Shown here: positions 33,554-47,699 of the stretch, in pieces | Numbering within the stretch: position 1 is the first letter of the stretch | Layout: each line of letters begins with the position of its first letter | Origin: an uncultured Rhodospirillales bacterium | GTDB taxonomy: Bacteria; Pseudomonadota; Alphaproteobacteria; ATCC43930; CGMCC-115725 | Direction of reading: 5' to 3' | Assembly: GCA_903822185.1 (NCBI GenBank) | Contig: CAIJOA010000011.1 | Coordinates: 124,001 to 188,000 of the forward strand | DNA length: 64,000 bases | Translations under genes and position numbers: made by a program | The notes under the pieces: generated by a model | Databases searched by the model: none | The model's input: only the letters and a program-made list of their open reading frames with translations | What the model was told of the DNA's origin: nothing

Positions 33554-33647
33554 GTCCCTCGACTACGCTCGGGATGAGGTTTGTTTGGATTCTTGCTTCA
33601 ACCAATGCAACGCACAACCTGCCTCGTCCCGAGCGAAGTCGAGGGAC
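33554..33647. repeat. palindromic repeat pair, family B (GTCCCTCGACTACGCTCGGGATGAGG ... CCTCGTCCCGAGCGAAGTCGAGGGAC)
   Basis: Two inverted 26-bp arms read in the sequence; same family at 37117-37193. Confidence 0.85.
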
Positions 33648-34353: not shown

Positions 34354-34433
34354 CGTCATTCCCGCGAAAGCGGGAATCCATCGATCCCCAAAACGAGCGT
34401 GAAGTGGATTCCCGCTTTCGCGGGAATGACGGA
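34354..34433. repeat. palindromic repeat pair, family A (dRS3-like ATTCCCGCGAAAGCGGGAAT) in inverted arrangement
   Basis: CGTCATTCCCGCGAAAGCGGGAATCCA ... TGGATTCCCGCTTTCGCGGGAATGACG. Confidence 0.9.
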
Positions 34434-37116: not shown

Positions 37117-37193
37117 CTCCCTCGACTGCGCTCGGGACGAGGTCTTTCTTTGTGCCATTCACAATGTTCCTCGTCCCGAGCGTCGTCGAGGGA
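37117..37193. repeat. palindromic repeat pair, family B (second copy)
   Basis: CTCCCTCGACTGCGCTCGGGACGAGG ... CCTCGTCCCGAGCGTCGTCGAGGGA. Confidence 0.85.
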
Positions 37194-45367: not shown

Positions 45368-46207
45368 TTATGCGTCGGCTGGAAACACTTCGCCCGAGGT
45401 AACACGGCGGCGGCCGGCTTCGGCATCCAGCAGCAACGCGCCATCGTCATCGAGACCGGCGAAAATACCGACCGATTCCGAATCAGCCAGACGTACGCGG
45501 ATCGGTTGCCCGATCCCCGCTCCGCGCGCCAACCAAGCATCGCGCACGGCCGGGAAGCCTTTTCCCTCGTCCCAACGTTCGTACCAACCGAGAAAGCGCT
45601 CGGCCAAAGCGGCAAGCATCGCATCCGACGAGACCTCCGTTCCGGTCGCGCTAAGTGCCGTCGCGGGATAAGCCGCGTCCGTCGGATAGGCGGCGAGATT
45701 GATGCCGATACCGAGCACAAGCCAGTCGAGGCCACCGCCCTTCCCAGTTTGCGATTCCAGCAGGATGCCCGCGAGCTTTCGATATCCCGCCCCTCCTTCG
45801 TCATTCCCGCGAAAGCGGGAATCCAGCGGTGGCGAGATGGACTCCCGCTTGTGCGGGAGTGACGAGATGTCGATGGGGCCGAGCATAATATCGTTCGGCC
45901 ATTTGAACGCGATATCCGCGTCCGGCGCGACATCACAGCAAGCATCCCCGGCGGCGACGGCGGCGACGAAGCTGAGTTGCATCGCGACGCCGATCGGGGC
46001 CTTTGGACGAAGGATGAGCGAGCAATAGAGATTGCCGCGCGGCGATACCCAAGTCCGGCCTTGGCGGCCGCGCCCGGCGGTTTGCTGGTCCGCCTGGATC
46101 AAAGTGCCGGCAGGCGCACCAGCCACGGCGAGGCGCTTGGCCTCGTCACTGGTGCTGGCGATCCGTTCGTGACGGATCAGGCGATAGAACGACGGCAGAT
46201 TTGTCAT
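45368..46207 (-). CDS. birA: biotin-[acetyl-CoA-carboxylase] ligase, lacking N-terminal HTH, with in-frame repeat-derived insertion
   Basis: ASTSDEAKRLA, QQTAGRGRQGRTWVSPRGNLYCSL, KWPND, RKLAGILLES; insertion between KWPNDIMLG and RKLAG. Confidence 0.93.
   Translation of the reverse strand: MTNLPSFYRLIRHERIASTSDEAKRLAVAGAPAGTLIQADQQTAGRGRQGRTWVSPRGNLYCSLILRPKAPIGVAMQLSFVAAVAAGDACCDVAPDADIAFKWPNDIMLGPIDISSLPHKRESISPPLDSRFRGNDEGGAGYRKLAGILLESQTGKGGGLDWLVLGIGINLAAYPTDAAYPATALSATGTEVSSDAMLAALAERFLGWYERWDEGKGFPAVRDAWLARGAGIGQPIRVRLADSESVGIFAGLDDDGALLLDAEAGRRRVTSGEVFPADA
45798..45870. repeat. palindromic repeat pair, family A, inserted in frame within birA
   Basis: CGTCATTCCCGCGAAAGCGGGAATCCA ... 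TGGACTCCCGCTTGTGCGGGAGTGACG; encodes [23 protein letters not shown]. Confidence 0.9.
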
Positions 46208-46235
46208 GATTTCCCGTTGCCGGGAAATGCGTCGG

Positions 46236-47699
46236 TCATCCGGCGAAGAGTGCCGCCGCGACGGCGTCCGCGCCATCGACCAGCATGGTCGGCCAGACGA
46301 AGAAGAACAGAACGACCAGCGCCGACACCAACATCACCGCCTGAACCTCGCGCGGAACCGGGCGATCGAACGGCTCGGCAGGCTCGTCGAAATACATCAG
46401 CTTGACGATACGCAGATAATAGAACGCGCCGACGACGCTGGAGAGAACACCGATGATCGCCAGCGCATAGAGATGCGCGTCGATGGCGGCAAGGAAGATA
46501 TAGAGCTTGGCGAAGAACCCGGCGAGCGGCGGAATACCGGCCATCGAGAACATGAAGATGGCGAGCGCCAACGCCATGCCCGGATTGGTGCGCGACAGAC
46601 CGGCCAGATCGGCGATGCCCTCGACCAGCTTGCCTTGGCGACGCATGCAGAGGATCACGGCGAAGGTGCCGACGCTCATGAACAAATAGATCGAGAGATA
46701 AACCAGGATGCCGCGAATACCGCCGGCGCTGTTCGAGGCAAGACCAATCAGGGCGTAACCGACATGGCCGATCGAACTGTAAGCCATCAGCCGTTTGATG
46801 TTGGTCTGATTGATGGCGGCGAAAGCGCCGAGCAGCATCGAGGCGACGGAGATGAACCAGATCACCTGCTGCCATTCCGCGCCGAGGCCGCCGAACGGAC
46901 CGATCATCACGCGGACGAACAAAGCGAGCGCGGCGATCTTCGGCGCGACCGAGAAGAAGGCCGTCACCGGGGTCGGCGCGCCTTCATAAACGTCGGGCGT
47001 CCACATATGAAACGGCACGGCGGAGGACTTGAAGGCGAGGCCGACCGCGATCAGGACGATGCCGATGATGAGCCCAATCGAAACCGTACCGCCATCTTGG
47101 AAGGCATGGCTCAGCGTATCGAAGCTGGTCGAGCCGGCGAAGCCATAGACCATCGACGAGCCGTAGAGCAGCATGCCCGAGGCAAGCGCACCGAGGACGA
47201 AATATTTGAGGCCAGCCTCGGTCGAGCGCAGCGAATCACGCTGGAACGCGGCGCAGACATAGAGTGCGAGGCTTTGCAGCTCGAACGAGACATAAAGCGA
47301 GATGAGATCGTTCGACGAAATCATCAGCAGCATGCCGGTCGTCGCCAGAAGGATCAGGACCGGATATTCCGGCCGAGCAATGCCTTCCTGCTCGTTGTAG
47401 CGCATGGAAAGAATGATCGAGAAAGCCGAACCGGCGATCACCAGCATCTTGGAAAATGCGCCGAAGCCGTCGGTGATGAAAAGGCCGTAGAAGCTGACCA
47501 AACGGTCAGTGCCGCGTGCATGCAGCGGCATCGCGACGAGCGCGAAGGTCACGACCAAAGCGGCGACCGATAGCCAGGCGATTTCGCGCGCGGACTTATC
47601 GCCCTGGAAGACGCCGAGGATCAGCAGCGCCAGCGCGGCGGCGGCGAGAAATATCTCGGGCAGCGCGGGCAGGAATTCGGACGCGGCGAATTGGATCAT
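46236..47699 (-). CDS. nuoN: NADH-quinone oxidoreductase subunit N
   Basis: Antiporter-like subunit, position in nuo cluster. Confidence 0.95.

Follow-up and report, generated by a model that had tools for sequence, protein, structure and literature searches.

Palindromic repeats lying in frame inside conserved enzymes have been described in Rickettsia as RPE (Ogata 2000; Abergel 2006, both according to PMC2229807), and the guanylate kinase (gmk) of R. conorii remains active with its repeat insert, its affinity for substrate being altered (Abergel 2006, summarised in PMC2229807). The in-frame insertion of CGTC REPs was catalogued in 2013 by Di Nocera et al. (PMC3733652), and the text of that survey places intragenic palindromic repeats in O. 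terrae, Thauera, Xanthomonas, S. maltophilia, E. litoralis, S. alaskensis and others, many more bacteria than the Rickettsia to which a first-pass annotation of the present DNA had mainly confined them. The same text describes the CGTC-1 REP as belonging mainly to Alphaproteobacteria, forming head-to-head dimers and occurring inside genes in several species, and it classes RPE-4 and RPE-6 of R. conorii with the CGTC repeats.

Here we analyzed a repeat inside birA, which lies in a window of 64,000 nucleotides (the whole stretch of DNA that was analyzed) from an alphaproteobacterial draft genome of 4.27 Mb. The insert was confirmed as an in-frame palindromic repeat in a single-copy and normally essential enzyme, and it is a further example of this known phenomenon. 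The element and its family match the CGTC-1 REP head-to-head dimer by the published text description (PMC3733652). The likeness to the repeats described there covers the CGTC tag, the 8-bp stem starting with AT, the 4-base loop, the CCA tail and the head-to-head dimers, as well as a mostly intergenic location with some intragenic copies (encoding 20-30 residues) and no dedicated transposase; the unit layout here, ATTCCCGC-GAAA-GCGGGAAT-CCA, fits the text of section 6. The main text of PMC3733652 does not name birA as an intragenic REP host, and no description of intragenic copies confined to one 66-bp size class was found there.

The parallel with RPE drawn in the first-pass annotation holds, as a palindromic repeat lies in frame within conserved genes (birA, ctaA and a methyltransferase gene), and the family link is the CGTC classification in PMC3733652. 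The two differ in that RPE are of 105-146 bp and their host is obligate intracellular (PMC2229807), whereas the present element is of 66 bp in a genome of 4.27 Mb. REPIN/RAYT systems are alike in having two inverted REPs that form one long hairpin in tens of dispersed copies, but the tag is GTAG there and CGTC here, and no RAYT protein (PF01797) was matched in this genome, with control genomes positive. The dRS3 of Neisseria is an inverted repeat of ATTCCC...GGGAAT, which is also found here; by description it differs from the present CGTC-tagged unit of 27 bp with a CCA tail, arranged in head-to-head pairs. The earlier label of dRS3 was given up, the element fitting the CGTC-1 REP dimer as described in the text of PMC3733652.

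The birA gene and its in-frame repeat

The open reading frame of birA spans 45368-46276 on the minus strand, being open back to 46276, and its start is probably the ATG at 46204, which gives 278 residues. The product matches PF03099 (BPL_LplA_LipB, 2.7e-15) and PF02237 (BPL_C, 1.3e-12), with PF16917, another BPL/LplA model, as the only further domain; the catalytic and C-terminal BPL domains, the lack of an N-terminal HTH and a fold match to biotin-protein ligases define it as group I. KWPND is located at residues 101-105 and the lysine of RKLAG is K143 of 278, and both K101-D105 and K143 are invariant in BirA alignments of 19 and 63 sequences. We take K143 to be the active-site lysine by the role of K183 in E. 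coli BirA and K111 in P. horikoshii BPL. Open frames of 700 aa around birA in relatives were considered as a NuoN-BirA fusion and rejected, their upstream part being out-of-frame GC-rich sequence. The features are listed in Table 1.

Table 1. Features of the birA locus, in positions of the window
Feature	Position	Strand	Remarks
birA	45368..46204	minus	biotin-protein ligase, group I type, without N-terminal DNA-binding domain, 278 aa
Extra codons before element (PIDI)	45866..45877	minus	not common to relatives, outside repeat
CGTC-type REP head-to-head dimer, 66 bp, in frame	45799..45864	minus	sequence; genome-wide family; absent from relatives
REP half 1, first in coding strand: CGTCACTCCCGCACAAGCGGGAGTCCA	45838..45864	minus	stem variant found in other copies too, plus loop substitutions
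Spacer GCGGTGGCGAGA	45826..45837		11/12 to ctaA copy (inverted), 9/12 to methyltransferase copy (direct)
REP half 2: CGTCATTCCCGCGAAAGCGGGAATCCA	45799..45825	plus	exact consensus: 8-bp stem, 4-base loop, CCA tail
Extra codons after element (EGGAGY)	45782..45799	minus	not common to relatives, outside repeat
Active-site lysine codon (K143, RKLAG)	45776..45778	minus	invariant in both alignments

The element reads CGTCATTCCCGCGAAAGCGGGAATCCA-GCGGTGGCGAGA-TGGACTCCCGCTTGTGCGGGAGTGACG in the window, with ends of CGTC...GACG, and TGGACTCCCGCTTGTGCGGGAGTGACG is the near-complement of CGTCATTCCCGCGAAAGCGGGAATCCA across the 12-base spacer. Folded as RNA it reaches -44.9 kcal/mol, where shuffles give -20.7 +/- 3.1 (z -7.8). 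It encodes 22 residues (114-135), the frame being shifted by one base (45800-45865), and is placed between KWPND and K143 with the reading frame of birA kept, its last residue 8 before the lysine; the first-pass annotation had correctly placed an in-frame palindromic insertion before the catalytic-lysine motif. That annotation had also derived all of some 30 extra residues from the doublet. The total stands, with a net excess of 31 residues over relatives, of which the element gives 22 and the sequence around PIDI and EGGAGY gives 9; the coding sequence of these two (about 27 bp) is neither repeat-derived nor present in relatives.

The boundary of the insertion was obtained by alignment, as had been proposed: 28 BirAs of the same family are readable at the site and have two residues there, 31 fewer than here, and the congener reads KWPNDVLLNGKKLAG with the insert absent. 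Nearly all same-family tblastn matches break at about BirA residues 108 and 142; the match of one relative (G027) starts at residue 125, yet the insert is absent in its alignment, and a search across the order found no uninterrupted birA match. Further 66 birA loci were taken from named genomes, nearly all alphaproteobacterial (14 of 80 fetched loci misfit the motif and were uncounted), and in 65 of these WPND and AGI(L)E are separated by 8 residues and in one by 12, compared with 39 here. The insertion is lineage-specific, and none of the relatives is close enough for dating it or for measuring selection afterwards. An ancient BirA loop with a coincidental likeness to the repeat would suit the nine flanking residues that are not repeat-derived, but no comparable loop exists among the relatives examined (28 and 66 loci) and dozens of matching copies of the repeat occur elsewhere in the genome; we regard such a loop as extremely unlikely, and for the 22-residue part it is refuted by the distribution of the insert among BirAs.

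Two other explanations concern the soundness of the gene. With a draft of 50 contigs and a repeat this short, unrelated reads may have been joined inside birA as an assembly artefact; against it, 66 bp is probably below the usual read length, the spacer and arm substitutions of the birA copy are not found together in any other copy, and both flanks give parts of a single BirA in the same frame, which leaves an artefact with next to no probability. The gene may also be a decaying pseudogene whose role has passed to another ligase or to a partner organism, as would accord with 31 residues inserted near an active-site residue and with a draft that is 95% complete. This is very improbable: no second intact birA was found, birA being the sole PF03099 match in the genome (4.27 Mb, 50 contigs, 95% complete), the frame is open over all 278 residues with conserved motifs intact, the coding signal is clear on either side of the insert (0.38 and 0.37), and the neighbouring genes in this 4.27 Mb genome are open.

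Distribution of the repeat family

The repeat unit consists of an unpaired CGTC tag, an 8-bp stem starting with AT, a 4-base loop and a CCA tail. The half-element pattern has 68 exact matches in the genome against 0 for the reversed control pattern. At 57 places at least 51 complete head-to-head dimers were counted, a lower bound because 40 of 73 first-look candidates were scored and degenerate copies can escape; they are for the most part intergenic and of 78-80 bp, with 3 judged intragenic. Their lengths are 79 bp (27 dimers), 78 bp (9), 66 bp (4) and otherwise 60-83 bp, and CGTC...GACG is found at both ends in 49 of 51, including the birA copy. The repeat is present in 33 of 39 genomes of the taxonomic family, and it has multiplied in this lineage, since the half-element matches are 74 here vs 7 in the congener. 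Among relatives, 9 have PF01797 matches (12 in total), and the repeat was absent from all the flanks that were fetched.

A LolD-like ABC ATPase gene on the minus strand of the window has, immediately upstream, a dimer of 78 bp at 34355-34430 that is apparently intergenic. The first-pass annotation had taken this dimer, given there as 34354-34433, as the same doublet as that of birA; it belongs to the same family, and its size class and spacer are different. At another locus (L082:3014-4075) an NMT1-like substrate-binding protein seems to have a CGTC dimer of 63 bp as its N-terminus; the true start of the protein may lie within or after the repeat. The window also carries another kind of palindromic repeat, in two pairs (TCCCTCGACTRCGCTCGGGA facing TCCCGAGCG..GTCGAGGGA) at 33555-33646 and 37118-37193.

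Copies inside genes

Scanning of the coding signal in the flanks of every copy, along with inspection of spanning ORFs, gave three intragenic dimers, in birA, ctaA and a methyltransferase gene. The ctaA copy (L086) lies in COX15 (PF02628, 2.3e-108); the methyltransferase copy (L088) has a weak coding signal of 0.07 on both sides, and homologues with 41-43% identity can be aligned to either flank of the insert. In all three genes the alignable relatives are without the element. All three dimers are of 66 bp, that is 22 codons, and belong to the only four of this length; this association has a chance of 1.9e-4 if length is irrelevant, in a test devised once the data were known. In whichever orientation any of the 66-bp copies is read, two of its three phases are open, and the third ends in TGA. 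The three genes share one phase, the more hydrophilic one (SSFPRKRES...DSRFRGND), the remaining open phase being more hydrophobic.

The birA and ctaA spacers are identical at 11 of 12 positions, inverted (chance 1.5e-5 per pair), and the birA and methyltransferase spacers at 9 of 12, direct (chance 9e-4 per pair). The central peptides of the three copies are ISPPL (birA), SGGDM (ctaA) and IEPPL (methyltransferase), the first two differing because the spacers are inverted. The DNA of birA and ctaA copies is thus similar and the peptides are different, therefore it is DNA ancestry and not peptide function which unites the copies.

Several other candidates were tried and rejected. Long ORFs across dimers in L072, L100, L078, L094, L098 and L103 gave arginine-rich readings with no convincing coding signal, and a Pfam check, which covered L078 and L075 only, matched neither. 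No convincing intragenic dimer was found among 41 dimers of five relatives, where genes were judged by coding signal only and all dimers but one are of 77 bp or longer. An apparent in-frame dimer of 61 bp in one genome (G018, L298) was left uncounted; it seems to connect two separate genes and gave no Pfam match. The class-wide search with the insert peptide in 387 genomes had matches in 11 genomes, this one included, and the long frames inspected (L241, L242, L246, L249 and L257) are no recognisable genes.

The loop of CtaA after LWVAL, which is the site of the CGTC dimer in this genome, carries other repeat-like inserts in the ctaA of three relatives (L114, L133 and L129): PHPPLPRQRGRVREGGCP; HPHPNPPPLAGEGTKQAAPENPPPRAGEG; NSLSPTGERVGVRG. 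These sequences suggest that unrelated repeats have entered one loop in frame more than once. The CtaA structure model made without alignment has a pLDDT of 56 and is too poor for use.

Predicted loop and proposed explanation

The AlphaFold model of BirA, made with 62 homologues, has a mean pLDDT of 91 and a pTM of 0.89, and its best PDB matches are biotin ligases, the top one being E. coli BirA (2ewn_A, E 4e-21). The strands 105-111 and 140-153 that flank the insert site are intact, and the poorly predicted residues are mainly those of the insert, with pLDDT of 67, 46 and 59 in blocks across 111-140 and only residues 121-128 below 50. Therefore the insert most likely extends the turn of a beta-hairpin as a disordered loop in the predicted structure, with K143 staying on its strand. 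The surface-loop tolerance suggested in the first-pass annotation agrees with this model, in which the core of BirA is predicted to be intact.

That annotation had also proposed a repeat-to-peptide exaptation, in which BirA has taken up the inserted peptide, for instance to serve next to the active site as a docking or regulatory loop. The kept frame and the end of the insert 8 residues before the active-site lysine would be in keeping with it, as would the hydrophilic phase common to the three intragenic copies; plain tolerance accounts for this choice of phase as well, because the other open phase is more hydrophobic. The loop is predicted as disordered, the insert is carried by unrelated proteins, and the central peptide differs between copies although the DNA of birA and ctaA is conserved, the two most similar copies being inverted. 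No sign of use of the peptide was seen, exaptation is quite improbable, and the inserted peptide most likely does nothing.

It is highly probable that a selfish CGTC-type REP dimer was inserted into birA in this lineage and was tolerated, with its frame kept and at a loop site. A mobile 66-bp CGTC dimer of REPIN-like layout would enter genes in either orientation, its mobility being indicated by the copy number and by insertions in both orientations, and copies would persist where the frame is unbroken, no stop is formed and the fold is undisturbed. In birA the insert would sit in a tight hairpin turn just before the active-site lysine and bulge out as a disordered loop. The insertion would have survived because it has 22 codons, a stop-free phase, a hydrophilic peptide and a tight-turn site, and the interrupted BirA presumably retains activity, so that the product would be a working enzyme with a useless loop. 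Counted against this insertion account are that the element covers just 22 of 31 extra residues and that no candidate transposase was found.

A more tentative and rather unlikely extension is that the 66-bp dimers are a subfamily of their own, whose length of 22 codons and stop-free hydrophilic phase permit harmless entry into coding sequence, so that an RPE-like spread through protein loops (birA, ctaA and methyltransferase) has taken place recently by a transposition enzyme other than RAYT.

The insertion into birA adds to the hosts of mobile palindromes a single-copy and normally essential enzyme, with the interruption 8 residues ahead of the active-site lysine. The three events from related copies in one genome have a simple pattern of whole codons, a stop-free hydrophilic phase and a loop site, and the question whether such inserts are neutral or used becomes directly testable in a well-assayed enzyme.
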